Shown here piece by piece: positions 6,969 to 51,928 of a stretch of 64,000 bases of DNA (position 1 is the stretch's first letter; every line of letters starts with the position of its first letter). The position numbers were made by a program, and so were the translations under genes. Source of the stretch: Kitasatospora phosalacinea (lineage in GTDB: Bacteria > Actinomycetota > Actinomycetes > Streptomycetales > Streptomycetaceae); the NCBI RefSeq assembly GCF_000717185.1, contig NZ_JNYE01000027.1:80872-144871 (forward strand), in the 5' to 3' direction. The notes beneath the pieces were generated by a model. It was not told the DNA's origin. It did not search any database and saw nothing but the letters and a program-made list of their open reading frames with translations.

Positions 6969-6993
6969 GTGTGCCGCGCGCACCCCCGGGTAC
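6969..6993 (+). promoter_or_regulatory. Sigma-B-type promoter (GTGT-N15-GGGTAC)
   Basis: GTGT at 6969-6972, 15 nt, then GGGTAC at 6988-6993. This fits the published S. coelicolor sigma-B consensus GNNT-N14-16-GGGTAC/T exactly. It lies 86 bp before the molybdopterin oxidoreductase ATG. Confidence 0.6.
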
Positions 6994-7014
6994 ACGCGCC
7001 AGCCGTCGGGCCAC

Positions 7015-7079
7015 AGCGCCGGGAAGGGCGGAACCGAGCGCCGAGAAGGGCGGAACCGAACGCCGAGAAGGGCGGAAGC
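7015..7079 (+). repeat. Three 22-bp direct repeats before oxidoreductase start
   Basis: Three near-identical copies at 7015-7036, 7037-7058 and 7059-7079. Each contains gaagggcgg, a Shine-Dalgarno-like core; the last copy ends one base before the ATG. This could be slippage or a leader element affecting translation. Confidence 0.75.
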
Positions 7080-9584
7080 ATGCGTGACCGGATCGACCGG
7101 ATCGCCGAACCCTGGGGCGACCGCACCCCCTACGGGCCCGGGCAGCCGTGGCCGGTGCGCCAGGACACCCACCTGACCGGGACGGGCGTGGACCGCTGGG
7201 TGCCCGCCGCCTCGCTGCTGCACTCCAACGGCGACGCGATGGACGTCGCGGTGCGCGACGGCCGGATCGTCGGGGTGCGCGGCCGGGCCGACGACCGGGT
7301 CAACCGGGGGCGGCTCGGCCCCAAGGACCTGTTCGGCTGGCAGGCCAACCACGCCGCCGACCGGCTCACCACGCCCCTGGTGCGACGCGGCGGCCGCCTG
7401 GAGGAGAGCGACTGGGACACCGCGATGGGCCTGGTCGTCGACCGGACGGAGCAACTGCTGGACGCGCACGGCCCCGGCTCGATCGGCTTCTACACCTCCG
7501 GGCAGCTGTTCCTGGAGGAGTACTACACGCTCGCGGTGATCGCCCGCGCGGGCATCGGCACCAACCACCTGGACGGCAACACCCGGCTGTGCACCGCCAC
7601 CGCCGCCGAGGCGCTCAAGGAGACCTTCGGCTGCGACGGCCAGCCCGCCTCGTACACCGACGTCGACCACTGCGACACGCTCGCGCTGTACGGCCACAAC
7701 ATGGCCGAGACCCAGCCGGTGCTGTGGATGCGGGTCCTGGACCGCCTCGCCGGGCCCGAGCCGCCCCGGCTGCTGTGCGTCGACCCGCGGCCCACGCCCG
7801 TCGCCGCCCGCGCCGAGGTGCACCTCGCGCCCCGGACCGGCACCAACGTCGCGCTGCTCAACGCCCTGCTGCACGAACTCGTCCGCACCGACCGGATCGA
7901 CCACGCGTACGTGGACGCGCACACCGTCGGGTACGAGGAGCTCGCCGCGGGCGTCGCGACGTGCACGCCCGAGTGGGCCGCGCGGATCTGCGACGTTCCC
8001 GCCCGGGAGATCCGGCGGGCCGCCGAACTGCTCGGCGGGGCACGGAAGTTGCTGTCGACCGTGCTGCAGGGCGTCTACCAGTCGCACCAGGCCACCGCCG
8101 CGGCCGTCCAGGTCAACAACATCCAGTTGGTGCGCGGCATGCTCGGCCGCCCCGGCTGCGGGGTGCTGCAGATGAACGGCCAGCCGACCGCCGAGAACAC
8201 CCGTGAGTGCGGCGCCGACGGCGACCTGCCCGGCTTCCGCAACTGGGAGAACGCCGCACACGTCGCCGAACTCGCGGAGCTGTGGAACGTGGAGCCCGAG
8301 CGCATCCCGCACCACGGCCCGCCCACCCCCGCGATGCAGATCTTCCGGTACGCCGAACAGGGCTCGGTCAAACTGCTGTGGATCTCCGGCACCAACCCGG
8401 CGGTCTCGCTGCCCGAACTCGCCCGGATCCGCGAGATCCTGCGCGCCGAAGGGCTGTTCACCGTCGTCCAGGACCTCTACCCGACCGAGACCGCGCTGCT
8501 CGCCGACGTCGTGCTGCCCGCCGCCACCTGGGGCGAGAAGACCGGCACCTTCACCAACGCCGACCGCACCGTCCACCTCTGCGAACAGGCCGTCCAGCCG
8601 CCCGGGCAGGCCCGCTCCGACCTCGCCATCCTGCTCGACTACGCCCTCCGGATGGACTTCCGCGACCGCGACGGCGCCCCGCTGATCGGCTGGCACGACG
8701 CGCCCGGCGCCTTCGCCGCCTGGCAGCGCTGCTCCGCCGGACGCCCCTGCGACTACACCGGCCTCAGCTACGCGCTGCTGCGCGAGCGCGGCGGCGTCCA
8801 GTGGCCCTGCGACGCCGAGCACCCCGACGGCACCGAACGCCTCTACACCGACGGCATCTCCTGGGCCGCCCCCGACACCTGCGAGACCTACGGACGCGAC
8901 CTGGTCACCGGCGCCGCCGTCTCCGAGACCGAGTACCGGGCCCTCAACCCGGACGGCAGGGCCGTGCTCAAGGCCGCCGAGCACCTGCCCCTGCACGAGG
9001 ACGTCAGCCCCGAGTACCCGCTGCAGCTCACCACCGGCCGCACCCTCTACCACTTCCACACCCGCACCAAGACCGGCCGCACCCCCCAACTCGCCGCCGC
9101 CGCACCCGAGATGTGGGTCGAGATCGGCGCCGGGGAGGCCCACCGGCGCGGCCTCGGCGAGGGCGACCTGGTCGAGGTCGCCACGGCGCGCGGCGCCGTC
9201 CGGGCCCGGCTGCGGGTCACCGCGCTGCGCGACGGACTGCTCTTCCTGCCCTTCCACTACGGCTACTGGGACACCCCCGGCCGCACCGGCCCCGGCCCCG
9301 ACGGCGGGCGCGCCGCCAACGAGACCACCCCCACCGACTGGGACCCGGTCTCCAAGCAGCCCCTCTACAAGACCGCCGCCGCCCGCCTCACCCGGCTCGC
9401 CCCCGCCGACGGCACCCCCGCACCCGCCCCCACCACCGGCGCCGCCGCACCCGCCGACCCCGCCGCCGCGCCCCCCACCACCGGCGGCCCCGACGCGTTC
9501 GCCGACCAGCGGCCCGCACGGCAGGAGGCCGCATCCGTACCCGCATCCCCACCCGCCCCACCCGCACCGGAGGCCACCCCGTGA
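7080..9584 (+). CDS. Molybdopterin oxidoreductase (bis-MGD family)
   Basis: An 834-residue member of the formate dehydrogenase/nitrate reductase-like superfamily. The N-terminal segment that usually carries CxxCxxxC cluster ligands reads AASLLHSNGDAMD instead, with no cysteines, so a [4Fe-4S] cluster is not evident. The core has GFYTSGQLFLEEYY, GTNHLDGNTRLCTATA with the likely Mo-ligand cysteine, CVDPRPTP, GCGVLQMNGQPTAE, and a C-terminal molydop-binding domain (TTGRTLYHFHTRTKTG). The last 50 residues are Ala/Pro-rich. It overlaps the downstream ferritin-like gene by 4 bp and has a sigma-B-type promoter upstream. Substrate unknown. No twin-arginine signal, so probably cytoplasmic. Confidence 0.9.
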   Translation: MRDRIDRIAEPWGDRTPYGPGQPWPVRQDTHLTGTGVDRWVPAASLLHSNGDAMDVAVRDGRIVGVRGRADDRVNRGRLGPKDLFGWQANHAADRLTTPLVRRGGRLEESDWDTAMGLVVDRTEQLLDAHGPGSIGFYTSGQLFLEEYYTLAVIARAGIGTNHLDGNTRLCTATAAEALKETFGCDGQPASYTDVDHCDTLALYGHNMAETQPVLWMRVLDRLAGPEPPRLLCVDPRPTPVAARAEVHLAPRTGTNVALLNALLHELVRTDRIDHAYVDAHTVGYEELAAGVATCTPEWAARICDVPAREIRRAAELLGGARKLLSTVLQGVYQSHQATAAAVQVNNIQLVRGMLGRPGCGVLQMNGQPTAENTRECGADGDLPGFRNWENAAHVAELAELWNVEPERIPHHGPPTPAMQIFRYAEQGSVKLLWISGTNPAVSLPELARIREILRAEGLFTVVQDLYPTETALLADVVLPAATWGEKTGTFTNADRTVHLCEQAVQPPGQARSDLAILLDYALRMDFRDRDGAPLIGWHDAPGAFAAWQRCSAGRPCDYTGLSYALLRERGGVQWPCDAEHPDGTERLYTDGISWAAPDTCETYGRDLVTGAAVSETEYRALNPDGRAVLKAAEHLPLHEDVSPEYPLQLTTGRTLYHFHTRTKTGRTPQLAAAAPEMWVEIGAGEAHRRGLGEGDLVEVATARGAVRARLRVTALRDGLLFLPFHYGYWDTPGRTGPGPDGGRAANETTPTDWDPVSKQPLYKTAAARLTRLAPADGTPAPAPTTGAAAPADPAAAPPTTGGPDAFADQRPARQEAASVPASPPAPPAPEATP

Positions 9585-14118: not shown

Positions 14119-14214
14119 GGCCGCCACCTCTCCTCGGGGATCCGACTGCGCCGCGCCTGCCCGAGGTGCAGGGGAGGAAACGGGGCGATAAGAGATGGAT
14201 GGGGACATTCACCC

Positions 14215-14240
14215 GTTTCCGTTCGGCCCCGACCGGTTAG
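14215..14240 (+). promoter_or_regulatory. Sigma-B-like promoter (GTTT-N16-GGTTAG)
   Basis: GTTT at 14215-14218, 16 nt, then GGTTAG at 14235-14240, one base off the GGGTAG seen elsewhere in the window. It is 46 bp before the catalase ATG. Confidence 0.5.
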
Positions 14241-14286: not shown

Positions 14287-16488
14287 ATGACTGCCGACGA
14301 CACCCGCCCCGACCTGCCCGGCGCGCCGAGCTCCGGCGAGCCCACGGTCGAGGAGCCGGTCGAGCCGCGCCCGCCGCTGCCGCCCAAGCCCGACCAGGCC
14401 GCGCCCGCGCCCCTCTCGGCCACCGGGCGCGGCCCGCGGACGGACGGCCCGGTCCGCGCGCAGGAGGGTGCGTACCTGACCAACGCGCAGGGCACCCGGC
14501 TGCCGGACTCCGACCACTCGCTGAAGGCCGGACCGCGCGGCCCCGTCCTGCTCCAGGACCACCACCTGCGCGAGAAGATCACCCACTTCGACCACGAGCG
14601 GATCCCGGAACGCGTGGTGCACGCCCGCGGCGCCGCCGCGCACGGCGTGTTCGAGAGCTACGGCGCGGGCGCCGGGATCAGCAAGGCCGGGTTCCTCGCC
14701 GCCGGGGCGAAGACGCCCGTCTTCGTCCGGTTCTCCACCGTGCTCGGCTCGCGCGGCTCCGCCGACACCGTCCGCGACACCCGCGGCTTCGCCACCAAGT
14801 TCTACACCGACGAGGGCGTGTTCGACCTGGTCGGCAACAACATCCCGGTGTTCTTCATCCAGGACGCGATCAAGTTCCCGGACGTGGTGCACGCCGCGAA
14901 ACCGCACCCCGACCGGGAGATCCCGCAGGCGCAGTCCGCCCACGACACCTTCTGGGACTTCGTCTCGCTGCACACCGAGGCCACCCACCACACCCTGTGG
15001 AACATGTCCGACCGCGGCATCCCGCGCTCCTACCGGACGATGGAGGGCTTCGGCATTTACACCTTCCGCCTGGTCGACGCCGAGGGCGCCACCTGCCTGG
15101 TCAAGTGGCACTGGAAGCCCAAGCTCGGCGTCCACTCGCTGACCTGGGACGAGGCCCAGCTGATCGGGGGCGCCGACCCCGACTACCACCGCCGCGACCT
15201 GTACGACGCGATCGAGGCCGGGGCGTTCCCGCAGTGGGAGCTCGGCGTCCAGGTCATGCCCGACACCCCCGAGCAGACCTTCGAGGGCATCGACCTGCTC
15301 GACCCCACCAAGATCGTCCCCGAGGAGCTGGCCCCCGTGCAGGCGCTCGGCCTGATGACCCTGCACGCCAACCCGACCAACTTCTTCGCCGAGGTCGAGC
15401 AGGTCGCCTTCCACCCCGGCCACCTGGTGCCCGGTATCGACGTCACCGACGACCCGCTGCTGGCCGGACGGCTGTTCTCCTACCTCGACACCCAGATCAC
15501 CCGGCTCGGCGGCCCCAACTTCGCGCAGATCCCGATCAACCGCACCCACGCGCCGGTCAACGACATGCTGCGCGACGGCTTCCACCAGGACGCCGTGCAC
15601 ACCGGCGTCGCCCCCTACAAGCCCAACTCGCTGGACGGCGGCTGCCCGTTCTTCGCCGGGACCGACGAGCGGGCCTTCGTCGAGCACCCGCAGCCCGTCC
15701 CGGAGTCCAGGAAGGTCCGGGAGCTGCCCGCCTCGTTCGACGACCACTTCAGCCAGCCCCGGCTGTTCTGGGCCAGCATGACGCCCGTCGAGCAGGAGCA
15801 CATCATCAACGCCTACGGCTTCGAGCTCGGCAAGTGCACCGAGCCCGCCGTCCGCGAACGCAGCCTGCGCGTCCTCGCCCGGATCGACGGACGGCTGTGC
15901 GCCGAGGTCGCCGCCGCCCTCGGCCTGCCCGCCCCCGAGGGGGACCCCGCGGACGGGCCCGCCGAGCCCAGCCCCGCGCTCTCCCAGCTCGGCCGCAGCT
16001 GGCCGGTCGCCGGGCGCACCGTCGGCATCCTCACCGGGCCGGACGCCGACCCCGCCACCCTCGACGCCGTCCGCGACGCCGCCCTCGCCGCCGACCTGGT
16101 GCCGCTGGTGGTCGCCCCGACCGGCGGCGACCCGGCCCGGGTGCAGCGCAGCTTCGCCACCGCCCGCTCCGTCGAGTTCGACGCCGTCCTGCTGGCCGGG
16201 GCCCCCGCGCCCGCCGCCGACGCCGCCCCCGCCCGCGACGCCCGCGCCGCCGGGCCGCACGCCGTCCTCGACCCGCGGCTGGCCCTGCTGCTCGACGAGG
16301 CCTGGCGGCACGCCAAGGCGATCGGCGGCTGGGGCGACGCCCGCGAGGCCCTCACCGCGGCCGGGCTCCCGTCGGACGGGCCCGGCGTCGTCCTCGGCAC
16401 CGACCCGGTGCAGGTCCTGCGCGACCTCGCGGACCTGCTCGCCGGGCACCGGGTCTGGGACCGCTTCCCGCCGCCCGCGCAGAGCTGA
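14287..16488 (+). CDS. katE: Large-subunit catalase (clade 2, KatE-type)
   Basis: A 733-residue monofunctional haem catalase. After a Pro-rich N-terminal arm, the catalytic histidine is in VVHARGAAAHG, the distal asparagine in DLVGNNIPVFF, and the haem-ligand tyrosine in RLFSYLDTQITRLG. Residues from about 580 form the C-terminal DJ-1/GATase1-like domain typical of large-subunit catalases (GRTVGILTGPD onward). It destroys hydrogen peroxide. GGAAGGA precedes the ATG at 14287. A sigma-B-like promoter upstream fits stress induction. The small membrane protein downstream may be co-expressed. Confidence 0.95.
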   Translation: MTADDTRPDLPGAPSSGEPTVEEPVEPRPPLPPKPDQAAPAPLSATGRGPRTDGPVRAQEGAYLTNAQGTRLPDSDHSLKAGPRGPVLLQDHHLREKITHFDHERIPERVVHARGAAAHGVFESYGAGAGISKAGFLAAGAKTPVFVRFSTVLGSRGSADTVRDTRGFATKFYTDEGVFDLVGNNIPVFFIQDAIKFPDVVHAAKPHPDREIPQAQSAHDTFWDFVSLHTEATHHTLWNMSDRGIPRSYRTMEGFGIYTFRLVDAEGATCLVKWHWKPKLGVHSLTWDEAQLIGGADPDYHRRDLYDAIEAGAFPQWELGVQVMPDTPEQTFEGIDLLDPTKIVPEELAPVQALGLMTLHANPTNFFAEVEQVAFHPGHLVPGIDVTDDPLLAGRLFSYLDTQITRLGGPNFAQIPINRTHAPVNDMLRDGFHQDAVHTGVAPYKPNSLDGGCPFFAGTDERAFVEHPQPVPESRKVRELPASFDDHFSQPRLFWASMTPVEQEHIINAYGFELGKCTEPAVRERSLRVLARIDGRLCAEVAAALGLPAPEGDPADGPAEPSPALSQLGRSWPVAGRTVGILTGPDADPATLDAVRDAALAADLVPLVVAPTGGDPARVQRSFATARSVEFDAVLLAGAPAPAADAAPARDARAAGPHAVLDPRLALLLDEAWRHAKAIGGWGDAREALTAAGLPSDGPGVVLGTDPVQVLRDLADLLAGHRVWDRFPPPAQS

Positions 16489-16574
16489 ACCGGGCGGATT
16501 TTCCTACCGGAGGCGGCATGGGTGAACGATCAGCGGGCAGACGGCGGACGTACTGATACGAAGGAGGACAAATC

Positions 16575-18790: not shown

Positions 18791-19042
18791 TCAGTGGCCG
18801 TCCGGGCCCCGCGGGGGGACGGTCGGCTCCGGACGGTCCGGCCCGTCGCCCTCCGGCGTGCTCCAGGAGTCGGAGCGCGGGGCCGCGGGCCCGGGCCCCG
18901 CCGGGGGGCGCCGCCGGGCGCGCCGCCGACTGCCCCACACGAACGCCCCGATCAGTGCGGCGACGATGATCAGCGCCGGAATGACCATCACCAGAAGGGA
19001 CGGGCCGCTCGACTCCGCCGCCAGTACCACGTCGACCGTCAT
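18791..19042 (-). CDS. DUF6479-like small membrane protein
   Basis: An 83-residue protein with a short extracytoplasmic N-terminus, one transmembrane helix (LLVMVIPALIIVAALIGAFV), the WGSRRRARRRPP boundary and a Pro/Gly-rich cytoplasmic tail. This pattern resembles DUF6479 of streptomycetes; function unknown. A sigma-B-type promoter lies at 19098-19123, back-to-back with one driving the gas vesicle operon. Confidence 0.7.
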   Translation of the reverse strand: MTVDVVLAAESSGPSLLVMVIPALIIVAALIGAFVWGSRRRARRRPPAGPGPAAPRSDSWSTPEGDGPDRPEPTVPPRGPDGH

Positions 19043-19097: not shown

Positions 19098-19123
19098 CTA
19101 CCCGGTGCGGTCGGAATGAATGC
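19098..19123 (-). promoter_or_regulatory. Sigma-B-type promoter (GCAT-N16-GGGTAG)
   Basis: On the minus strand GCAT (19120-19123) is 16 nt from GGGTAG (19098-19103). It would give a leader of about 50 nt before the DUF6479-like gene. Confidence 0.6.
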
Positions 19124-19144: not shown

Positions 19145-19169
19145 GTGTTGTGTTCCGCGCTCCGGGTAG
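19145..19169 (+). promoter_or_regulatory. Sigma-B-type promoter of gas vesicle operon
   Basis: GTGT at 19145-19148, 15 nt, GGGTAG at 19164-19169. It is 64 bp before the first gene of the operon and diverges from the promoter at 19098-19123. Confidence 0.6.
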
Positions 19170-19233: not shown

Positions 19234-20052
19234 ATGAAGAATTCGAAGTTGGCAACTGCTGTGGTCGCGGGCTACTTCCTCGGGCGCTGGCGCAAGGCCC
19301 GCTGGGCGTTGGCCCTGGCGGGCATGGCGGCGGGAAAGAAACTCAGCACCAATCCGGGCGTGCTGTTCGGGCAGCTCATGGAGTCCTCACCGCAACTGCG
19401 CGGCCTGGTGGACGAGATGCGCGGCGACCTCACCGAAGCGGGCAAGAACGCCCTGGTGACGGCCGCGGGCAACCGGATGGGCGCGCTCACCGACCGTCTG
19501 CAGCAGCAGACCGAAGCCGTCCGCGACCGTACTGCGGGACGCGGCCGGGACGACGAGGAACCGGACGAGGACGAGGTGGAGCCGGACGACAGCGAGGAAC
19601 CGGACGAGGAGGAGCCCGAGCCGGACGAGGCGGAGGCCGAGGAGGAACCGGACGAGGCCGAGGAAGCCGAGGAGCCGGAGGAGGCCGAGGACGAGGCCGA
19701 GGACGAGGCCGAGGACGAACCGGAGGAGGCCGAGGAGGAGCCGCCGCCCCGGCGACGCACCTCGCGAAGCAGCAGCAGCAGCAGCGCCTCCCGCGCGAGC
19801 GGCGGGGCCGGCGGGGGCACGAAGCGCCCGTCGCGGGCCAAGAGCGGCACGGCGTCCACCGCCTCCCGCTCCCGCTCGACCGGAAGCGGCACCGGCGCGA
19901 AGAAGACCGCGAAGAAGGCGGCGGCGCCGCGGAAGTCCACGGCCGCCAAACGGACCGCCTCGTCGGCCTCCGGACGGAAGTCGACCGGTACCGCGTCCGC
20001 CCGCAAGAGCACCGGGACACGGGCGTCCGCCAAGAAGACGAAGGCGGGGTGA
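19234..20052 (+). CDS. Gas vesicle cluster protein, acidic/basic low-complexity
   Basis: A 272-residue protein. Residues 1-35 include a hydrophobic stretch with arginines (LATAVVAGYFLGRWRKARW); residues 40-100 are helical. Then comes a run of about 70 residues dominated by Glu/Asp, and finally a Lys/Ala/Ser-rich tail like histone H1 (KKTAKKAAAPRKST). It is the first gene of the gas vesicle operon. A protein of unknown role occurs in related Streptomyces gvp clusters (gvpY position), but I cannot confirm homology. GGGGTAT precedes the ATG. Confidence 0.65.
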   Translation: MKNSKLATAVVAGYFLGRWRKARWALALAGMAAGKKLSTNPGVLFGQLMESSPQLRGLVDEMRGDLTEAGKNALVTAAGNRMGALTDRLQQQTEAVRDRTAGRGRDDEEPDEDEVEPDDSEEPDEEEPEPDEAEAEEEPDEAEEAEEPEEAEDEAEDEAEDEPEEAEEEPPPRRRTSRSSSSSSASRASGGAGGGTKRPSRAKSGTASTASRSRSTGSGTGAKKTAKKAAAPRKSTAAKRTASSASGRKSTGTASARKSTGTRASAKKTKAG

Positions 20053-20058
20053 CCGGCG

Positions 20059-21276
20059 ATGGCCAGGCAGTCCCATTCCGATGACGACAAGGGCGGCTCG
20101 GGCAGCGTGCTGGAGGCGCTCCCCACCGACCGGCTGATGGAACAGGCCCGGGAGCTGGTCTCCGCAGTGGGGGAGCGGGCGATGACGGCAGCCGCCGACA
20201 AGGTCGGCGGGGTGACCGAGCGGCTCGTCGACTACGTGGCGAACGGCGGCGGCAGCAGCAGCGGTGACGACGATGACGACGACGGTGGCGGTGGGGGCGG
20301 TGGCGGCAGCATCGGCGGAACCCTCGCGAAGAAGGCGCTGGGAGCGGGCGTGTCGAAGGTGAAGGATGCCGTGACCGGGAAACTCGGTGGCGGGGGTGGT
20401 GGCGGAGGGAGCAAGGAGACCAAGGTCACCAACATCATCGAGCAGGTCGACGTCGGGGTCCCCCTCCGGGTCGCCTACAACCAGTGGACCCAGTTCCAGG
20501 ACTTCCCGAAGTACACCAAGCGGGTCGAGAGCGTCGACCAGTCCTCCGACGAGAAGCTGAGCTGGAAGGCCGGGATCTTCCTCTCGCACCGCACCTGGGA
20601 GTCGACGATCGTCGAGCAGGTCCCGGACGAGCGGATCGTGTGGCGCTCCAAGGGCCAGAAGGGCTCGGTGGACGGGGCGGTGACGTTCCACGAACTCGCC
20701 CCCAACCTGACCAGGATCCTGGTCGTCCTCGAGTACCACCCCCAAGGCCTGTTCGAACGGACGGGCAACCTGTGGCGGGCCCAGGGCCGACGCGCCCGGC
20801 TGGAGCTGAAGCACTTCCGCCGCCACGTGATGACGCGCACGATCCTCGACCCCGACGACGTCGAGGGCTGGCGCGGCGAGATACGCGACAGCAAGGTGGT
20901 CCGCTCCCACGAGGACGCGATGCAGGAGGAGGAACAGCAGGACCAGGACGAGCAGGACCAGGACGAGCAGGACCAGGACGAGCAGGACCAGGACGAGCAG
21001 GACCAGGACCAGGAGGACCAGGAGGACCAGGACCAGGAGGAGCCCGAGGACGAGGGCTACGACGACGAGGGCTACGAGGACGAGGACCAGGGCGAGGACG
21101 GCGACGAGGAGTACGACGACGACGAGGAGTACGAGGACGAGGACGAAGGCGGCGACGAGGACGAGGACGGCGAGTACGAGGACGAGGACGACGCGGAGGA
21201 CGCGGAGGACACGGAGGACGAGCCCGAACAGCCCGCCCGCCGGAGTTCCCGCCGGGCCTCCTCCCGGAAGAGGTGA
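20059..21276 (+). CDS. SRPBCC-domain gas vesicle cluster protein
   Basis: A 405-residue protein. Residues 1-125 contain a helical start and Gly-rich/Asp-rich linkers. Residues 135-285 form an SRPBCC (polyketide cyclase/START-like) domain beginning [18 protein letters not shown], with [24 protein letters not shown] and [12 protein letters not shown]. The C-terminal 120 residues are an extreme Asp/Glu/Gln tail, including four exact 15-bp DNA repeats (20941-21000). It corresponds in position and type to the gvpZ-like gene of streptomycete clusters. Role unknown. Confidence 0.75.
20941..21000 (+). repeat. Four exact 15-bp repeats coding DQDEQ
   Basis: Unit gaccaggacgagcag repeated four times in phase, extending the acidic tail of the SRPBCC protein. 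This array is prone to length change by slippage. Confidence 0.85.
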
Positions 21277-21281
21277 GAGCG

Positions 21282-21704
21282 GTGTCAGTGGCCCCGCGTT
21301 CCAGCAACTACATGTCCCGCCCTTCTTCGTCGGGCCTGGTGGACGTGATCGACCTGATCCTCGACAAGGGCCTGGTCATCGACATCTACATCCGGGTCTC
21401 CCTGGTCGGGATCGAACTGCTGACCATCGACGCCCGCATCGTGGTGGCGAGCGTCGACACGTACCTGCGCTTCGCCGAGGCGGTCAACCGGCTCGACATC
21501 ACCCAGGACCGGAGCGAAGGACTTCCGCAGCTGGTGAACGACATGCAGGAGGGCGGTGCCCGGCACAAGACCCGCGGCGCGCTCGAAGGCGTGAAGGAGA
21601 AGGTGACCGACCTGATCGGAGGAGACGGCGAGGAGGACGAGGAGGAGCAGGAGGAGCGGCCCCGTCGGCGGACGCGGCCGGCCCGGAAGGGGCGTGAGCA
21701 ATGA
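21282..21704 (+). CDS. gvpA: Gas vesicle structural protein GvpA
   Basis: A 140-residue protein whose first 75 residues are clearly Gvp[39 protein letters not shown] and TYLRFAEAV. GvpA forms the ribbed wall of the gas vesicle. Unlike the usual short GvpA it has a 60-residue tail, rich in Glu then Arg/Lys. The GTG at 21282 was preferred (GTGs at 21273 and 21288 are alternatives). The gene sits 5 bp after the SRPBCC gene and overlaps gvpF by ATGA. Confidence 0.88.
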
Positions 21705-22489
21705 GCGGCACCCTCCCGTCCGACTCCGCCTGCTACGTCTACGGCATCGTCCCGGCCGACGCCCCCGTACCGGAGGAGGTGCTCGGCGTCGGCGACCCGC
21801 CCGCGCCGGTGGTCCCGGTGCAGCACGGGGAGGTGGCCGCCCTGGTCAGCGAGATCGACCCACGCCGCCCGCTCGGCACGCCCCAGGACCTGATCGGCCA
21901 CGCCCGGGTGCTGGACGCGGTGGCGGCCGGACGCACGCCCGTCCTGCCGTTCCGGTTCGGCGCGGTGGTCCGGGACGCGGCGGCCGTCACCGACGAACTG
22001 CTCGCCCCGCAGCAGGAACGCTTCCTGGCCGCGCTGGAGGGGCTGGAGGGCTTCGCCCAGTTCACCGTCCGCGGCGCGTACCGGCAGGACCGGGTGCTGC
22101 GCGAGATCCTCGAACAGCGGCCGGACGTCGCCCGCCTCCGCGAGGAGATCGCCGCGCTGCCCGAGGACGCCTCCCGCTACCAGCAGATCCGGCTCGGCGA
22201 ACTCGTCTCCGAGGAACTCACCGCCCGCGCCCGGGCCGACGCCGACGAACTGGCGGCCCGGCTCGGACCGCTCGCGGCGGCCACCGCCCGCGCCGACTCC
22301 TCCGCCGACCAGCCGGTCAACGCCTCCTTCCTGGTCGCCGAGGACAGCTGGGAGGAGTTCGAACGCGCCGCGGACGGCCTCGCCGCCACCTGGGAGGGCC
22401 GGATCGACCTCCGGCTGCTCGGCCCACTGGCCCCGTACGACTTCGCCTCGCAACTCGTCGACGCCCGAGGACGCGACTCATGGGACTGA
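21701..22489 (+). CDS. gvpF: Gas vesicle protein GvpF/L
   Basis: A 262-residue GvpL/GvpF family protein: [15 protein letters not shown] at the start, [12 protein letters not shown] in the middle and [17 protein letters not shown] at the end, the standard domain boundaries. GvpF is an accessory protein contacting GvpA during vesicle nucleation. It overlaps gvpA and gvpG in tight translational coupling. A second family member lies at 23672-24493. Confidence 0.9.
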
Positions 22490-22722: not shown

Positions 22723-22725
22723 ACC

Positions 22726-37295: not shown

Positions 37296-38485
37296 CAGGC
37301 ACCCTTCGCGACCACCACGCCGGCGTCGTCCCGGCGCACCCCCGCCTCGCGCAGCAGCAGCGCGGCCGCGGTGACGGGCAGGTGGGAGAACAGGCCGGGG
37401 ACGTCGGGGGCCCGCCAGCGGTCGGTCAGGCCGTCCGAGTGCAGCACGACCGCGCTGCCGGGCGGCAGCTCCTGCTGGACGGTGTGCGGCGCGGGCAGCT
37501 GGTGGCCGACGATGCCGGGGGAGGAGGGCAGCGAGCGGCGGGCCCCGGTGGCGGTGTCCACCACGAAGGCGCTGACGTTGCCGACCCCGCAGAACACCAC
37601 CCGGGCGGCGGCGGGCTCGACCAGGGCGACCGCGATCGCCCCGCCGCGCCCGGTGCGCAGCACCCGGTGCAGGTCCGCCAGGACCTCCTCGGGCCGGTGC
37701 GCCTGGCTGCGGTGGAAGGCGGCGACGGCGTCCGAGGCGGCCCGGGCGGCGAGCGGACCGTGGCCCAGCCCGTCGCAGAACAGCAGCAGGAAGGAACCGG
37801 CGTCCGGCCGCCCCGGCCCGGGGGAGACGGGCGTCCGGGGCGCCCGGTTGGTCAGCACCGACCAGTCCAGCGCGGCCCCCGCCACCCCCGCGGCCCGGGG
37901 CAGGACGCGGCCGGGCACCGGCGGCAGCGCCCCGAGCGGGCGCACCGCCCAGGCGTCGCCGCACAGCTCCTGCCCGCTCATCGGCCGGGTCAGCCCGGCC
38001 GCGGCCGGTTCGCCCGCCGCGGCGGCCGCCCGCCCGGCCGGGGTGCGGTTCCAGAACCGGGCGGTCAGCACGGTGCCCCGGCCGGGCAGCGAGTGCAGGT
38101 CGAAGGCGTCGGCGAGGCGGGCGACCGCGCCCAGGCCGATGCCCAGGGTCGGGCCGGAGGAGTAGCCGTCGGCGAGCGCCGCGGGGACGTCCGCCATCCC
38201 CGGCCCGCTGTCGACGGTGAGGAACTCCAGCGCCGCCTCGGTGTCGGTGCGCACCACGCGCAGCACCATCGCCCCGTCCACGGCGTGCCGGCGCAGGTTG
38301 GTGGCGGCCTCGCTGACGGCGAGCGCCACCTCGGCGGCCCGCTCGGGCAGCAGGCCGATCCGGTGGGCGAGCTGCCGGGCCGTGCCGCGGGCGGCGGCGG
38401 GCAGCGAGTCGGAGTGCCGGAACCACACGGTGTCCTCGCACCCGGCCGGGACGGGCGCGGCCGGGCCCGCCCGGTCGGGGGTCAC
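37292..38485 (-). CDS. HATPase-PP2C fusion (RsbX/RsbT-like)
   Basis: A 397-residue protein. Residues 15-135 are an anti-sigma-type HATPase domain (ALAVSEAATNLRRHAV, DSGPGMADVP, LGIGLGAVARLADAF). Residues 165-395 are a PP2C domain of RsbX type (LLLFCDGLGHGPLAARAA, LHSDGLTDRW). RsbX resets stressosomes by dephosphorylating RsbR and RsbS. It overlaps rsbT and the hybrid kinase by 4 bp each. The RsbX role is inferred from the order. Confidence 0.88.
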   Translation of the reverse strand: MTPDRAGPAAPVPAGCEDTVWFRHSDSLPAAARGTARQLAHRIGLLPERAAEVALAVSEAATNLRRHAVDGAMVLRVVRTDTEAALEFLTVDSGPGMADVPAALADGYSSGPTLGIGLGAVARLADAFDLHSLPGRGTVLTARFWNRTPAGRAAAAAGEPAAAGLTRPMSGQELCGDAWAVRPLGALPPVPGRVLPRAAGVAGAALDWSVLTNRAPRTPVSPGPGRPDAGSFLLLFCDGLGHGPLAARAASDAVAAFHRSQAHRPEEVLADLHRVLRTGRGGAIAVALVEPAAARVVFCGVGNVSAFVVDTATGARRSLPSSPGIVGHQLPAPHTVQQELPPGSAVVLHSDGLTDRWRAPDVPGLFSHLPVTAAALLLREAGVRRDDAGVVVAKGAW

Positions 38486-38901
38486 CGGGCCCACTTGGTC
38501 ACCGACACCTTCGTCCCGGAGCCGGGCTCGCTGCGCAGCTCGAACTCGTCCACCAGCCGCCGGGCCCCGCTCAGGCCCAGGCCCAGGCCGCCGCCGGAGG
38601 TCCACCCGTCGGTCAGCGCGAGGTCCAGGTCGGCGATGCCGGGGCCGCTGTCCTCGAACACCGCGTGCACGCCCACCCGGGCGCCGCTGCGGACGGCGGC
38701 GCAGCGCATCAGGCCGCCGCCGCCGTACACCAGCGTGTTGCGGGCGAGCTCGCTGGCCGCGGTGACCAGCTTCGTCTGGTCGACCAGCGACAGCCCGCAC
38801 TGCTGGGCGTACGTCCGGACGGTCTGCCGGGCCCGCACCACGTCGTCGTTGGAGCCGATCGGCACGCTCTGCTCGTCCTCCACCACCCGCGGCCCGGTCA
38901 T
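38482..38901 (-). CDS. rsbT: RsbT-like serine kinase of the stressosome
   Basis: A 139-residue GHKL serine kinase: N-box ASELARNTLVYGGGG, G1 FEDSGPGIADLDLAL, G2 GGLGLGLSGARRLVDEF, ending SGTKVSVTKWA. In Bacillus, RsbT phosphorylates RsbR and RsbS and, once released, activates the RsbU phosphatase. It lies between rsbS and the HATPase-PP2C gene with 4-bp overlaps. Confidence 0.92.
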   Translation of the reverse strand: MTGPRVVEDEQSVPIGSNDDVVRARQTVRTYAQQCGLSLVDQTKLVTAASELARNTLVYGGGGLMRCAAVRSGARVGVHAVFEDSGPGIADLDLALTDGWTSGGGLGLGLSGARRLVDEFELRSEPGSGTKVSVTKWAR

Positions 38902-39275
38902 GGGCGGCCCGTACGCGCGGTACGGTCCCGTTCCAGCAGCGCCAGGCCCTTCTCCAGGGTGAGCGCGGTGCGCACCCCGCCGAGCGAGAGGCCCAGCTCG
39001 ACCAGGGTGATCGCCACCGCCGGGCGCATGCCGACGACCACGGTCTCGGCGTCCAGCATGCGCGAGATCGCGGCGGTGTTGGCGAGCATCCGGCCGACGA
39101 AGGAGTCGACGATCTCCAGCGCCGTGATGTCGATGACCACGCCGTTCGCACCGGTGGCGACGATCCGTTCGGCCAGGTCGTCCTGGAGGTCCAGGACGAT
39201 CTGGTCCTCCAGGTCGACCTGGATGGAGACCAGCAGGACCTGCCCGATCTTCAGGACGGGGACGCGGTCGCTCAT
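38898..39275 (-). CDS. rsbS: RsbS-like STAS scaffold protein
   Basis: A 125-residue STAS protein: VPVLKIGQVLLVSIQVDLED at the start, phosphoacceptor serine in VIDITALEIVDSFVGRML, and GMRPAVAITLVELGLSLGGV after it. This is the pattern of RsbS, the core of the stressosome that holds RsbT. It overlaps rsbR and rsbT. Confidence 0.92.
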   Translation of the reverse strand: MSDRVPVLKIGQVLLVSIQVDLEDQIVLDLQDDLAERIVATGANGVVIDITALEIVDSFVGRMLANTAAISRMLDAETVVVGMRPAVAITLVELGLSLGGVRTALTLEKGLALLERDRTARTGRP

Positions 39276-40111
39276 CGGTCGCCGCCCGAAGGCAGCGCGG
39301 CGCCGCTGTGCTGCAGCACGTGGCGCAGCGCGTCGGCCAGGGTCGCCTTGGTGACGATGTCGCCGAACTGCACGCCCAGCGCGACCAGGGTCTGCGCGAT
39401 CTGCGGCCGGATGCCGGAGATCGTGCACTCCGCGCCCATCAGCCGGGCGGCGACCACGGTCTTCAACAGGTGCTGGGCGACCTCGGTGTCCACCGCGGGC
39501 ACACCGGTGATGTCGATGATGGCGTGCTCGGACTCCGAGTCCACCAGGCTCTGCAGCAGCTTCTCCATCACCACCTGGGTGCGCGCCGAGTCCAGCGTGC
39601 CGACCAGCGGCACCGCGACCACGCCCTCCCACAGCTTGACCACCGGCGTCGACAGTTCGAGCAGCTGCTCGGCCTGGGCGCTGATGATCTCCTCCCGGGT
39701 GCGGGCGTACGCCTCGATGGTGAACAGGCCCAGCGCGTCGAACAGCCGGGCCAGCTGGAGGTAGGCCGCGGTGTCCTCGGCGGTGCTGTCCGCGGTCGGC
39801 TCCAGCACGTCCTTGCCCGCGAAGACGCTGACGGCCGTCTCGGTCGGCGTGAAACCGTGCCGGGCCCGGCTCCGGGAGAGCTCCACCAGCAGGGCGCGCA
39901 CCTCCGAGTACGCCTCGTCCTGCCAGTCCAGGCCGCCCTTGTCCAGGGCCTGCAGCAGCGCCTGGTAAAGGTCCGACAGCTCGCGCTCCAACTCGGCCCG
40001 GCTGATCCGGCCGCCGAGGGACGCCGCCACGGCCGCCACCCACTGCTCCTGCACCGCACCGTCCCGGGTGAGCAGCTCCACGAGCCGTTCCGACGCACGC
40101 TCCACCGCCAT
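39272..40111 (-). CDS. rsbR: RsbR-like stressosome sensor
   Basis: A 279-residue protein with an N-terminal helical (non-haem globin-like) sensor domain of about 150 residues and a C-terminal STAS domain. The phosphorylatable threonines are in IIDITGVPAVDTEVAQ and SGIRPQIAQTLVALGVQF. It is the first gene of the stressosome operon; GAGGAGAG precedes the ATG at 40109-40111. The signal sensed by the N-domain is unknown. Confidence 0.92.
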   Translation of the reverse strand: MAVERASERLVELLTRDGAVQEQWVAAVAASLGGRISRAELERELSDLYQALLQALDKGGLDWQDEAYSEVRALLVELSRSRARHGFTPTETAVSVFAGKDVLEPTADSTAEDTAAYLQLARLFDALGLFTIEAYARTREEIISAQAEQLLELSTPVVKLWEGVVAVPLVGTLDSARTQVVMEKLLQSLVDSESEHAIIDITGVPAVDTEVAQHLLKTVVAARLMGAECTISGIRPQIAQTLVALGVQFGDIVTKATLADALRHVLQHSGAALPSGGDR

Positions 40112-40309: not shown

Positions 40310-40789
40310 TCAGCGCCGGTCCACGTGCTCCGCCCTGAACATCCAGGCGTGCTTCTCCAGCGCCGCGGTCACCGTGATCAGCAGGTCCTGGGTCACGGGG
40401 TCGGCCTCCTCGGTCTTCGCGATCCGCTCGCGCATCCGGCCGACCACCGCCGCGAGCGCCCCCACCAACTGCTCCACGACCGCGGTGTCGGCCTGCCAGC
40501 CCGAGGGCACCCCGGGCAGGCCGCCCGCCGCGACGGTCGCGGCCCGCCCGTCCGGGCTGACGCCGATCGCGGCCGCCCGCTCCGCCACCTGGTCGGAGAA
40601 GTCGCGGGCCGTGGCCACCACCTCGTCCAACTGCAGGTGGACGGAGCGGAACCGGGGGCCGTACAGGTTCCAGTGCGCCTGCTTGCCGATCAGCGACAGG
40701 TCCACGAGATCGACCAGGGCGCCTTGCAGCGCCTCCCCTGCCGTGTCGCGGTCGTGCGCGGCCAGCGGGCTGCCGGTGGCGATGTCCAT
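40310..40789 (-). CDS. dps: Dps family ferritin-like DNA protection protein
   Basis: A 159-residue Dps: the ferroxidase region is split as GKQAHWNLYGPRF and HLQLDEVVATARDFSDQVAE, with the His, Asp and Glu ligands at dimer interfaces. It binds iron, detoxifies peroxide and may bind DNA. The promoter region has a partial sigma-B-like pair on the minus strand (GTTA-N15-GGGTTT at 40864-40888), less good than the others. It is followed by a strong terminator. Confidence 0.92.
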   Translation of the reverse strand: MDIATGSPLAAHDRDTAGEALQGALVDLVDLSLIGKQAHWNLYGPRFRSVHLQLDEVVATARDFSDQVAERAAAIGVSPDGRAATVAAGGLPGVPSGWQADTAVVEQLVGALAAVVGRMRERIAKTEEADPVTQDLLITVTAALEKHAWMFRAEHVDRR

Positions 40790-40903
40790 CGTTCGGTCCT
40801 CTCCACGTCGGGGGCGGTCGGCGAGCGCCGACCGTCCTTCGGCTGCCCGCCGCGGCCGGACGGAAACCCGCCCGCGCCCCCGGATAACGGTTTCGCATCA
40901 CCC

Positions 40904-40928
40904 GCGTGGACCCCCCGACCCCGGGTAG
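40904..40928 (+). promoter_or_regulatory. Sigma-B-type promoter (GCGT-N15-GGGTAG)
   Basis: GCGT at 40904-40907, 15 nt, GGGTAG at 40923-40928. It lies 111 bp before the SsgA-like ATG and diverges from dps. Confidence 0.55.
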
Positions 40929-43331: not shown

Positions 43332-44575
43332 GCACCGACACCCCGACCACCCCCGCACCCCCGCACCCCCGGGCCACGGGGACGACCGCCCTCAGCGAGG
43401 GCGCCCCGGCCCCTGCCGCGCGGGCCGCGACCCTAGCTTCGCCTCCGGCCGCGGGGACGGCGGCCCCCGCCGCGTCCGGCCCGGCCCCGTCCCTTCCCGC
43501 TCTCGTTCCGCCTCCCTCCTCCCCGCCCCCGTCCGTGTCCGTTCTCGCCGGGCGGCTCTGGGAGGCCGTCATCGGGGGCGACCAGGTGCGGGCCGCGGCT
43601 CTTGCGACGGGGGCGTTGGAGGCGGGGCTGGAGCCGGAGGCGTTGTTGTTGGACGTGATCGGGGGGTTGCAGGCGCGGGTCGGGCGGGAGTGGGCGGCCG
43701 ATCGGATCACCGTGATCCAGGAGCACGCCGCCACCGCCGTCAACGACCGGGTGGTGGCGCTGGTCGCGGGGCACCCCGCGTTCGCCGCCGCCGCTGCCCG
43801 GCAGCCGGATCGCGGCCGGATCGCGGTGGCCTGCGTCGACGGCGAGTGGCACGCCTTCCCCGCCCGGTTGCTGGCCGAGGTGCTGATGCTGCGCGGCTGG
43901 CGGGTGGACTACCTCGGGGCGCAGTGCCCGACCCCGCACCTGATCGCCCACCTGCACCGGACCGCCCCGGACGCGCTGGCCCTGTCCGCCTCGCTGTCGA
44001 CCCGGCTGCCCGCCGCGCACGCGGCCGTCACGGCGGCCCAGGCCGCGGGCGTGCCGGTCATCGCAGGTGGTGCCGCGTTCGGTCCGGACGGTCGGCACGC
44101 CCGGCTGCTGGGGGCCGACGCCTGGGCGCCGGACGCCCGCGCCGCGGCCGAGCGCCTGGCCCGGGGGCTGCCGCTGCCCGCTACCCCGCACCAGCCGGTC
44201 GACGACCTCCCGCACCTCGCGGACCAGGAGTACACCCTGGTCAGCCGGAGTTCCCGCGAGCTGGTGGGCGCCGTGATGGCGGCCCTGGAGCGGGAGCACC
44301 CGGCGGTGCGCTCCTACACCCCGCTCCAGCGCGCGCACACCCTCGACGACCTGGCCCACATCGTCGAGCACCTGGCCGTCACCCTGTACACCGGCGACCC
44401 GGAGCTGTTCACCGCGTTCACCGGCTGGACCAGGGAGATCCTGCTCGCCCGGGGCGTCCCGGACGCCCTGCTCGCCTTCTCGCTGACGGTGCTGCGCGAG
44501 CAGCTGCGCGACCTGCCGCGCAGCGTCGCGGTCCTGACGGCCGCCCTGTCGACGTCGGCGGGGGGCGCCGCGTGA
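43328..44575 (+). CDS. Cobalamin-binding domain protein in partner-switch operon
   Basis: A 415-residue protein. After a Pro/Ala-rich first 70 residues, residues 72-150 form a helical B12-domain cap. Residues 150-285 are a B12-binding Rossmann domain with CVDGEWHAFPARLLAEVL, where a DxxxH/ExH signature replaces the classic DxHxxG, then WRVDYLGAQCPTPHLI, ALSASLSTRLPAAHAAV and AGGAAFG. The last 120 residues are helical (TAFTGWTREILLARGVP). It resembles light or redox sensors built on a B12 domain; cofactor and signal are not proven. It lies between a PP2C and a STAS gene. Confidence 0.8.
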   Translation: MSTDTPTTPAPPHPRATGTTALSEGAPAPAARAATLASPPAAGTAAPAASGPAPSLPALVPPPSSPPPSVSVLAGRLWEAVIGGDQVRAAALATGALEAGLEPEALLLDVIGGLQARVGREWAADRITVIQEHAATAVNDRVVALVAGHPAFAAAAARQPDRGRIAVACVDGEWHAFPARLLAEVLMLRGWRVDYLGAQCPTPHLIAHLHRTAPDALALSASLSTRLPAAHAAVTAAQAAGVPVIAGGAAFGPDGRHARLLGADAWAPDARAAAERLARGLPLPATPHQPVDDLPHLADQEYTLVSRSSRELVGAVMAALEREHPAVRSYTPLQRAHTLDDLAHIVEHLAVTLYTGDPELFTAFTGWTREILLARGVPDALLAFSLTVLREQLRDLPRSVAVLTAALSTSAGGAA

Positions 44576-44889
44576 GCACCGGCCCCGGGCCCCGGCCCCG
44601 TACGGTCACCGTCCCGGTGGAGGGCGAACTCGACCACGAGAGCTGCGAGGAGCTCGTCCGGGCGGTGACCGTCCACCTGGCCGCCCGCCCGCAGGTCGAG
44701 GTGCTGCGGCTGGACTGCGCGGGCATGTCGCTGTGCGACTCGATGGGCCTGTCGGCGCTGCTCCAGATCCGGCGCGACGTCGACGCCGCCGGGGGCCGGC
44801 TGCGGCTCGACCACCGCCCCGCCCACCTGGAGCGCCTGCTGCGCCTCACCGGCACCGCCGACTACCTGCTCGCCGACCGGCCGGACTGA
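44572..44889 (+). CDS. STAS-domain anti-anti-sigma factor
   Basis: A 105-residue STAS domain: VTVPVEGELDHESCEEL and phosphoacceptor LDCAGMSLCDSMGLSALLQI, then a closing strand RLDHRPAHLERLLRL. It is the probable target of the PP2C encoded two genes upstream. The GTG overlaps the B12-binding gene stop. It would control an anti-sigma factor encoded elsewhere. Confidence 0.88.
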   Translation: MSTGPGPRPRTVTVPVEGELDHESCEELVRAVTVHLAARPQVEVLRLDCAGMSLCDSMGLSALLQIRRDVDAAGGRLRLDHRPAHLERLLRLTGTADYLLADRPD

Positions 44890-44968: not shown

Positions 44969-44993
44969 GTTTCCGATTCCCGGACCGGGGCAG
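44969..44993 (+). promoter_or_regulatory. Possible sigma-B-like promoter of P450
   Basis: GTTT at 44969-44972, 15 nt, GGGCAG at 44988-44993. It is only 9 bp before the ATG and no ribosome site is seen, implying a near-leaderless transcript. Two 20-bp direct repeats lie just upstream (about 44927-44966). Confidence 0.35.
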
Positions 44994-48454: not shown

Positions 48455-48479
48455 GCATGACCTGCGGAGGAGCGGTTAG
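48455..48479 (+). promoter_or_regulatory. Sigma-B-like promoter (GCAT-N15-GGTTAG)
   Basis: GCAT at 48455-48458, 15 nt, GGTTAG at 48474-48479, one base from GGGTAG. It is 40 bp before the WhiB-like gene. Confidence 0.5.
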
Positions 48480-50270: not shown

Positions 50271-50295
50271 CTACCCCCGACCCGGACGGCCACAC
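50271..50295 (-). promoter_or_regulatory. Sigma-B-type promoter (GTGT-N15-GGGTAG)
   Basis: Minus-strand GTGT (50292-50295), 15 nt, GGGTAG (50271-50276), 40 bp before the small acidic protein gene. Confidence 0.6.
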
Positions 50296-50601: not shown

Positions 50602-50672
50602 CGGACCTCCTCCGCCGTGCCGCCGGGAACGCTCCCGCGGCTGCCCGGCGCCGCCCGCCGCAAACCGGCCCC

Positions 50673-50697
50673 GGTTGCCCCGGCCCGTTCCGGGTAG
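50673..50697 (+). promoter_or_regulatory. Sigma-B-type promoter (GGTT-N15-GGGTAG)
   Basis: GGTT at 50673-50676, 15 nt, GGGTAG at 50692-50697. It is 49 bp before the hemerythrin ATG. Confidence 0.6.
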
Positions 50698-51272: not shown

Positions 51273-51274
51273 GC

Positions 51275-51784
51275 TCACCGCTCGTGCTGGCGGCGCTCCT
51301 CGTGGCGCAGCAGCAGGAAGGGCAGCACCAGCCAGGTGGTCGCGAAGTAGGCGACCGTGCAGGCGGACACCGTCGCGGCGAGCACGGCGTTGCCGGTCGC
51401 GGTGCGCAGCAGCAGCAACAGGGCGCAGCCGATGGTCAGGGCGAGCAGCGTCAGGCCCAGCCCGATCAGGCGCGAGCCGGTGCGGATCAGCACCGGCTTC
51501 AGGCCGTGCCCGGTCAGCAGCCGGTGGAAGGCGACCGGCGCGATCAGCGAGGCGGTCGCGCAGGCGCCCAGGACGACGGTGACCGTGTACAGGCCCTTGT
51601 CGAAGTCGTCGAGCGAGGCGAACCGCGGGGTGAAGGCCACGCTCAGCAGGAAGCCGAACAGGATCTGCGCCCCGGTCTGGGCGACCCGCACCTCCTGCAG
51701 CATCTCGTCCCACTGCCGGTCCGCCCGCTCCTGCGGGCTCTCGTCACGGCCGGGGCCGCCTCCGGACTGCGCAGAGTCGTCCAT
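51275..51784 (-). CDS. DUF6328-like membrane protein
   Basis: A 169-residue protein: a polar N-terminus with ERADRQWDEMLQEVRVAQTG, then QILFGFLLSVAFTPRF, and four helices in all, ending FLLLRHEERRQHER. The pattern matches the DUF6328 family of actinomycetes. AAAGGA precedes the ATG at 51782-51784. The gap to the next gene holds two overlapping promoter-like motifs. Function unknown. Confidence 0.8.
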   Translation of the reverse strand: MDDSAQSGGGPGRDESPQERADRQWDEMLQEVRVAQTGAQILFGFLLSVAFTPRFASLDDFDKGLYTVTVVLGACATASLIAPVAFHRLLTGHGLKPVLIRTGSRLIGLGLTLLALTIGCALLLLLRTATGNAVLAATVSACTVAYFATTWLVLPFLLLRHEERRQHER

Positions 51785-51901
51785 AGGGGGTCCTTTCGCT
51801 CGTCGCACCTGGTCGGCGGGAACGGGAACGGGGGCGGGGTCGGGAGGCCGGGGCCGGGCCGCTCCCGCCGATTCTCCGCCGCCCGCGCCGTCCCCGCCCC
51901 C

Positions 51902-51928
51902 GGTTGCCCGGTGCGGCCGCGCCTATGC
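51902..51928. promoter_or_regulatory. Overlapping divergent sigma-B-like motifs
   Basis: Plus strand: GGTT (51902-51905), 15 nt, GCCTAT (51921-51926). Minus strand over the same bases: GCAT (51925-51928), 15 nt, GGGCAA (51904-51909). Each is one or two bases from the consensus. If real, the divergent genes share one site. Confidence 0.35.

Follow-up and report, generated by a model that had tools for sequence, protein, structure and literature searches.

Genes and promoter-like sites at the locus

The DNA analysed here is a stretch of 64,000 nucleotides from Kitasatospora phosalacinea (the window). It covers nucleotides 80872-144871 of contig C27 (144871 in all), up to the contig's right end, in a genome of 8.6 Mb and 340 contigs. 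The RsbR protein encoded in it is 95% identical, in its best segment, to RsbR of K. phosalacinea NBRC 14627. Between approximately 4.9 and 52 kb, a part referred to below as the island, genes for a catalase, a Dps protein, non-homologous end joining (NHEJ), gas vesicles and a hemerythrin are found together with a set of partner-switch genes, and 18 short sites that resemble promoters of the SigB type are distributed among them. Genes were called with a home-made caller trained on this genome, and start positions are approximate; the starts at 19042(-) and 19234(+) were fixed by hand on the DNA, where the caller had omitted one gene and mis-started the other.

In the original prediction, eight exact matches to GNNT-N15/16-GGGTA(G/C) were reported, all of which were recovered in a pattern scan. 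They had been described as intergenic, directed at a gene and close to its start, and this holds for 8/8, at 39-110 nt from the start. Of the five variants proposed in addition, those at 14215, 48455, 44969 and 26220(-) are conserved in relatives and the one at 51902 is not. A weight matrix was built from the 8 exact sites and the 4 conserved variants, without 51902. Any base followed by CG (NCG) was found directly after the -10 box in all 12 training sites, whose leave-one-out scores ranged from 12.5 to 19.5. Six extra sites with scores of 15.7-17.1 were detected by the matrix, with -10 boxes ending at 4966(+), 14157(-), 16540(+), 40843(-), 50641(-) and 51969(+), at 31-53 nt from called starts (for 51969, 37 nt from an ATG at 52007); their NCG is partly built in, because the matrix rewards it. 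The conserved sites 4966, 14157(-), 16540, 40843(-) and 50641(-) had been overlooked in the prediction, as had the NCG element and the stressosome-type genes at the centre of the region.

Each of the 18 sites is kept in at least one relative, and start codons lie 9-110 nt downstream. The -35 box is GNNT in 18/18 sites and the spacer is N15 in 15/18 and N16 in 3/18; the promoter form proposed is GNNT-N15/16-GG(G/T)(T/C)A(G/C)-N-CG. The stretch from 4.9 to 52.4 kb contains 53 called genes and 23 transcription-unit heads; a site precedes 14 of the heads and 3 further genes.

In the following, compared genomes are denoted by G-numbers and fetched loci by L-numbers (L047 is a locus of K. cheerisanensis), and core identities in relatives are given with each site. 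At the left end, GTTT-N15-GGGCAG-ACG (4942-4966, +; 1.0/0.9/0.8 in G036/G026/G028) precedes an ornithine/lysine/arginine decarboxylase gene and GTGT-N15-GGGTAC-ACG (6969-6993, +; 0.9-1.0 in G036 and G026; G028 could not be aligned usefully) a molybdopterin oxidoreductase gene. GTTT-N15-GGGCAG-GCG (14157-14181, -; 1.0 in G036, G026 and G028) is directed at the SDR-ADH-Mut7C genes, and GTTT-N16-GGTTAG-CCG (14215-14240, +; 1.0/1.0/0.9 in these relatives) at a large-subunit catalase gene (14287-16488, +; PF00199, PF18011), for which catalase HPII was the best NCBIfam model, below its cut-off. GCAT-N15-GGGCAG-ACG (16516-16540, +; 1.0 in G036 and G026, 0.6 in G028, 0.3 in L059) stands before a membrane protein open reading frame (ORF) of 56 aa. 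Two divergent sites follow: GCAT-N16-GGGTAG-GCG (19098-19123, -; 0.9-1.0 in three relatives), upstream of an ORF for an 80-aa membrane protein (18803-19042, -) at the head of the SpoIIE-phosphatase genes, and GTGT-N15-GGGTAG-GCG (19145-19169, +; 1.0 in G036 and G026, both of which retain gas-vesicle genes), before the gas-vesicle run (19234-25022).

The divergent Ku (-) and LigD primase-polymerase (+) genes (25046-27287; PF02735, PF21686) each have a site, GTGT-N16-GGGCAG-CCG (26220-26245, -; 0.9-1.0 in three relatives) before Ku and GTGT-N15-GGGTAG-GCG (26300-26324, +; 0.9 in G026, 0.6/0.2/0.4 in G036/G028/G018) before the polymerase gene; the latter is the least conserved of all and is kept in G026 only. 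A phospholipase-D-like gene is preceded by GCAT-N15-GGGTAG-CCG (29755-29779, -; 0.9-1.0 in four relatives including K. cheerisanensis, 0.5 in L062). In the centre, GTTT-N15-GGGCAG-CCG (40843-40867, -; 1.0 in four relatives) lies before the Dps/ferritin-like gene (40310-40789, -; PF00210) and GCGT-N15-GGGTAG-TCG (40904-40928, +; 0.9-1.0 in four relatives) before an SsgA-like gene. Further to the right are GTTT-N15-GGGCAG-CCG (44969-44993, +; 1.0/1.0/0.9 in G036/G028/G018), 9 nt before a P450-domain gene, and GCAT-N15-GGTTAG-ACG (48455-48479, +; 1.0 in G036 and G028), before a WhiB-like gene. The last four are GTGT-N15-GGGTAG-CCG (50271-50295, -; 1.0 in G036 and G028), before a 63-aa ORF, GTTT-N15-GGGCAG-CCG (50641-50665, -; 0.8/1.0 in G036/G028), before a DUF4235 gene, GGTT-N15-GGGTAG-CCG (50673-50697, +; 1.0 in G036, 0.4 in G018), before the hemerythrin gene, and GTGT-N15-GGGCAG-GCG (51945-51969, +; 1.0/0.9 in G036/G028), before the ORF that starts at 52007.

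Two weaker candidates were noted. GTTT-N14-GGGCAA (28424-28447, -; score 10.7, below the matrix cut-off), before an 83-aa membrane protein gene, is conserved in G036, G026 and G028; GGAT-N15-GGGGAC-ACG (29811-29835, +; score 8.2), before the DAGK/BrkB/PAP2 genes, is conserved in these three and in L047. At 44993, 4966 (ATG at 4977), 29835 and 28424 a conserved start codon is found some 9-15 nt past the -10 box, and starts this close would give nearly leaderless mRNAs.

The partner-switch genes (33390-40111, -; assigned with Pfam) have no matrix hit of their own upstream. In order of transcription they encode RsbR (RsbRD_N and STAS domains), an RsbS-like STAS protein, an RsbT-like ATPase, an ATPase-SpoIIE phosphatase, a hybrid histidine kinase, a response regulator-SpoIIE phosphatase and a STAS protein. 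The genes for RsbR, RsbS (STAS) and RsbT (HATPase) are adjacent at 38482-40111, and orthologous runs are present in G036, G026, G028 and G021. RsbR starts 198 nt past the Dps gene, with no terminator-like pattern detected in the gap; transcription of RsbR by read-through from the dps site 40843(-) is thus possible. Downstream of a SpoIIE phosphatase gene, at 43649-44889, a gene for a B12-binding-domain protein is followed by a STAS gene, and no promoter site was found for this pair, which may possibly feed a signal that depends on light or cobalamin into partner switching.

Clustering of the sites

GNNT-N15-GGGTA(G/C) occurs 7 times in the window, against a mean of 1.61 and a maximum of 5 in 100 shuffled sequences, none of which reached 7. 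The single exact site with N16 is unremarkable by itself, because the shuffle mean for that form is 1.60. The matrix was applied to the window and to 64 tiles of the same genome: 49 centred on known GNNTN15GGGTAG sites or on genes of the SigB family (a bias towards hits), 11 in which no GNNTN15GGGTAG site was listed (a bias against them) and 4 taken from the same contig to the left of the window; the latter 15, with 275 genes, are the background tiles. At score 14 the 70 genes of the window gave 18 upstream hits (one, 4800, later dropped), none in genes and 1 other, a density that is partly circular, because the matrix was trained on 12 sites of this same window. The background tiles gave 2 upstream hits and 6 in genes, and the site-centred tiles, which contain 800 genes, 22 upstream, of which 10 have a form other than N15-GGGTAG, as well as 12 in genes. 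The 18 upstream hits of the scan are not identical with the 18 sites: 4800 is counted among the hits, and its place among the sites is taken by 51969, which had been scored as 'other' because its ORF was uncalled. Even at a score of at least 12, no hit fell inside a window gene, while background hits were mostly inside genes. With 299 column-permuted matrices, upstream window hits averaged 0.11 with a maximum of 2, and the reversed matrix gave 0.

Split-half training is the fair test of the clustering. When the matrix was trained on the 5 right-hand sites, the 32 genes of the left half showed 10 upstream hits at score 12 (including 4800) and none in genes, against 4/275 in the background. Training on the 7 left-hand sites gave 7 upstream hits for the 38 genes of the right half, against 3/275, with one more hit inside a gene and one elsewhere.

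Motif density was also compared genome-wide with that of reversed patterns, as the original prediction had proposed, with a divided outcome. The bare pattern GNNTN15GGGTAG is near equal to its reverse (60 versus 53), and GNNTN14-16GGGTAS (625 versus 589) and GNNTN{15,16}GGKYASNCG (469 versus 420) are too loose to be informative. An excess was present for the NCG form and for upstream positions: GNNTN15GGGTAGNCG occurs 22 times versus 9 reversed, and GGGTAGNCG with the N14 and N16 forms added 93 times versus 40. Six of the 22 lie inside the window, in a span of 31.6 kb, which was matched in 0/50,000 uniform simulations, with spans picked after the clusters had been seen. By hand count, the other 16 comprise 12 intergenic sites at most 200 nt ahead of a start, 3 sites inside genes and 1 intergenic site without a near start; without NCG, 8/38 GNNTN15GGGTAG sites are upstream of genes.

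Conservation and recurrence in other genomes

The order of the genes is conserved across tens of kb in G036, G026 and G028. At the alignable sites, identity to the window in the -35 G+T, the -10 hexamer, the CG, the spacer and the upstream 30 nt was 0.94/0.95/0.97/0.78/0.80 in G036; in the same order it was 1.00/0.93/1.00/0.77/0.69 in G026, 0.87/0.84/0.97/0.65/0.61 in G028 and 1.00/1.00/1.00/0.59/0.58 for three sites of K. cheerisanensis. From these values it follows that, G018 excepted, the boxes and the CG are kept and the spacer is drifting. Upstream hits of score 14 numbered 17 in the island run of G036, 14 in that of G028 and 9 in that of G026, and 8 in the orthologous region of G021. Clusters were also seen in G013 (6 hits) and G010 (11 hits), in regions mostly of other genes; G013, G010 and G021 were inspected since their clusters were already visible, so that these counts are no blind test. 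Seven control tiles of G021, G013, G010 and G018 (115 genes) contained no upstream hit. The G018 stretch at the LigD-polymerase gene has no island, with 1 hit of score at least 14 among 58 genes.

These results bear on the alternative that the sites arise by chance or base composition, GGGTAG-like words being common in GC-rich intergenic DNA. The near-equal counts of the bare pattern agree with it, but it is contradicted by the permuted and reversed matrices, the split-half results, the conservation across species and the empty control tiles, and its probability is negligible.

The arrangement is not general. At six RsbR loci titled Kitasatospora, three of them on the G026, G028 and G036 contigs, 25 upstream hits of score at least 12 were found among 130 genes. 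The same clustering had been expected at the RsbR locus of other Streptomycetaceae, and this was not borne out: 74 other RsbR loci, largely of Streptomyces and including L048, titled [Kitasatospora] papulosa, gave 27 such hits among 1357 genes. In a genus-wide pattern count, many genomes had no excess over the reversed pattern (e.g. 5 versus 17 in G012 and 7 versus 25 in G086), and the motif form is not common to the whole genus as sampled.

Genes that carry a site and lack a homologue in the window exist in G036, G013 and G010. Between Ku and the LigD-polymerase gene of G036 lie a gene beside Ku, which we take from the look of its sequence to encode a DNA-ligase-like protein, and a neighbour, each with a site; the newcomers of G013 and G010 are, on the same assumption, CsbD-like, Hsp20-like and hemerythrin-like. 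As a separate observation, nine GNNTN15GGGTAGNCG sites occur within 38 kb of G025 (C1:938479-976028), with a SigB-family gene at 962756.

It is worth weighing whether the promoters are real without forming a single island, the stress genes gathering in the chromosome arms with each regulated alone. Streptomyces dps copies with a SigB-type promoter are indeed found towards the chromosome ends with poor synteny (PMC3613396). The differing gene content of comparable clusters and the 12 promoter-like GGGTAGNCG sites elsewhere in the genome also fit. Against this stand the conserved gene order in G036, G026 and G028 and the presence of the RsbR-RsbS-RsbT control genes among the targets. This alternative, which differs from a coordinated island on the origin of the cluster and not on its transcription, is rather unlikely, though it is the most serious of those considered.

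At the borders of the island, two observations were made. To the left, 13 kb outside the window (L142:7644; G000 C27:67644), GCAT-N15-GGGCAG-CCG lies 43 nt before a 115-aa ORF, and the G028 stretch has a similar ORF, also with a site; because of these two sites the cluster may extend further left. To the right, just beyond the last site, a tyrosine recombinase gene (52479-53633) is flanked by near-identical inverted arms (139 nt, 95%; 91 nt, 98%) at 52160-52388 and 56142-56587, and part of its 3' end occurs again at 56621-56720; there is no tRNA in the window. Judged by the arms and the split 3' end, a recent insertion or inversion appears to have split the gene after the last island promoter, and 52.1-56.6 kb looks like a rearrangement separate from the island.

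Relation to published promoters

Table 2 of PMC8346170 contains 24 mapped promoters of nine SigB homologues of Streptomyces coelicolor. The original prediction set the GGGTAG of most sites beside a SigB consensus of GGGTAC/T, but GGGTAG is no departure from known SigB promoters: the SigB-recognised promoters SCO1566p and SCO7446p have GGGTAG, as does SCO1276p, a SigF/H/N promoter (PMC8346170), and the -10 consensus is written GGGTAC/G in PMC3184153. Just 1/18 island sites (6969) has the strict -10 box GGGTAC/T, which mapped promoters do not require, the others having GGGTAG, GGTTAG or GGGCAG, and 16/18 are inside the range of mapped SigB-recognised promoters (GGGTAG, GGGTAC, GGGCAx). The two GGTTAG sites, 14215 and 48455, have no exact counterpart in the table. 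Published SigB promoters have GNNT, GGGTAG/GGGCA and NCG in common with the island sites. NCG follows the -10 box in 9/16 SigB-recognised promoters versus 0/8 others (Fisher p 0.0095) and in 8/12 promoters not recognised by SigF/H/N versus 1/12 recognised (Fisher p 0.0094); the published promoters are independent of the island, the numbers are small, the two splits are related and the p values are uncorrected.

Two conserved blocks at a fixed spacing would also fit a regulator, i.e. a transcription factor site with direct-repeat-like halves and no promoter. However, 18/18 sites aim at the next gene at 9-110 nt from its start, the spacing varies between 15 and 16 as in promoters, and both blocks match the published promoter class, which makes this explanation very improbable. 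The sites might instead belong to the sporulation branch (SigF/SigH/SigN type), in which case the island would be a cluster for late development and not for stress. The paralogous sigma factors cross-recognise promoters and no sequence feature separating the promoter groups was found by the authors (PMC8346170), S. coelicolor dpsA (GGGCAT) is dependent on both SigH and SigB, and SsgA-like and WhiB-like genes are present in the island. On the other hand, 12/18 sites have a GNNT other than GTTT, which is the tendency of SigB/L/M promoters (PMC8346170), and the published distribution of NCG favours the SigB side. A sporulation cluster is accordingly improbable.

Candidate sigma factor

Five genes of the SigB/F/G family above the family cut-off are present in the genome, on C12, C2 (two), C38 and C13. 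The sigma gene of C38, which stands ahead of a STAS gene and a HATPase gene, carries GCAT-N15-GGGTAC-CCG at 38 nt upstream of its start. This site is identical in 4/5 close orthologues (G036, G021, G018 and G090), and G028 has the variant GGGTAA-CCG; 2/5 more distant relatives (L334, L335, L337, L338 and L339) have an upstream site. In 20 loci with other family members, no sigma gene was preceded by a site. No site of score at least 13 lies directly upstream of the C13 sigma gene, which is flanked by sites, one of them before the STAS gene next to it. SigB-family members are found at or near the clusters in G013, G010, G025, G090, G021, G036 and G018. Because of the motif before its own gene, which suggests autoregulation, the C38 sigma gene is the leading candidate for the sigma factor of the island. 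Next to the C38 sigma gene, a WhiB-like gene (L213:9656-9955) is preceded by GCTT-N15-GGTTAG-ACG, which is nearly the promoter of the window's WhiB-like gene.

Interpretation

The region from about 4.9 to 52 kb is best read as a chromosomal stress island, most units of which would be transcribed from SigB/SigL/SigM-type promoters, with a probability of roughly 0.8. A single stress switch probably activates a large part of the region at once. The promoter class and physical clustering put forward in the original prediction are thereby supported at the level of sequence; its notion of a stress regulon stands as far as the clustering goes, and we infer the stress induction and the sigma factor. 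Since the promoter class and GGGTAG were already known, the clustering is the finding.

Several observations weigh against this reading. Of the 23 transcription-unit heads, 9 are without a site of score at least 12, including the RsbR gene; two of these heads have the weaker conserved look-alikes 28424(-) and 29835(+). No SigB-family sigma gene is among the annotated genes of the window, nor is there one above the family cut-off on C27. In G018 the identities at three sites (0.67/0.50/0.67/0.54/0.56, in the order given above) include a low value for the -10 hexamer. A matrix made from the 16 published promoters separates the window from the background weakly and at high cut-offs only (28.6 versus 7.6 upstream hits per 100 genes at cut-off 10; 72.9 versus 81.8 at cut-off 5). 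Finally, two candidates were rejected, neither being conserved: 51902, replaced by the conserved GTGT-N15-GGGCAG-GCG 43 bp downstream, and the matrix hit 4800 (GCAT-N17, 197 nt from the start).

The following order of events, borrowed from the Bacillus/Listeria pathway, is the most likely. The RsbR-RsbS-RsbT module of the island would act as the stress sensor, and the change in RsbR-RsbS would release RsbT. RsbT would then activate a SpoIIE-type phosphatase that dephosphorylates a STAS protein, and the latter would remove an anti-sigma factor from a SigB-type sigma factor. The freed sigma factor would transcribe the island, i.e. catalase, Dps, the Ku/LigD-polymerase NHEJ genes, the gas vesicles, hemerythrin and redox and membrane genes, as well as its own gene and a number of scattered ones. 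In S. coelicolor, the genes for CatB, Dps and gas vesicles have been shown or proposed to respond to SigB or osmotic stress, and the RsbV-like SCO7325 acts on SigB.

More tentatively, and at somewhat less than even odds, the island could be a largely self-contained stress unit in which sensor, switch and effectors stand together and genes turn over between species, several newcomers carrying the same promoter, and the CG after the -10 box could be a read-out element that tells SigB/L/M-type from SigF/H/N-type promoters. The SigB-type regulons of S. coelicolor involve nine cross-reacting sigma factors, with no sequence rule for their promoters (PMC8346170). The 18 conserved sites with control genes amid them form a natural reporter set, NCG offers a sharper consensus that is testable by point mutation, and the compact region lends itself to studying why the genes of a stress regulon are packed so closely.

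Comparison with known systems

No account of such an island was found in the literature searched (open-licence PMC papers). The SigB regulon of S. coelicolor (GNNT-N14-16-GGGTAY) has the same -35 GNNT, a spacer of 14-16, -10 boxes of GGGTA or GGGCA and frequent NCG, and its target types (catalase CatB, Dps, gas vesicles) overlap with those of the island. It differs in that 7/8 exact island sites end in G and not in C/T, and that the island targets are packed in one stretch whereas the published targets have scattered SCO numbers. The dps copies in Streptomyces arms resemble the island in the correlation of a SigB-type promoter with arm location and in poor synteny, but they are single dps genes and no island (PMC3613396). 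With the stressosome module RsbR-RsbS-RsbT-RsbU-RsbV-RsbW-SigB the island shares RsbR, RsbS-like and RsbT-like genes in order, followed by SpoIIE phosphatases and a STAS protein; its operon is without a sigma gene and has a hybrid histidine kinase and a response-regulator phosphatase inserted. The stress survival islets of Listeria consist of few neighbouring SigB-dependent stress genes. The adjacent stress genes of the island, which would likewise depend on a SigB-type factor, resemble these islets, but the Kitasatospora island extends over about 47 kb with 18 sites.

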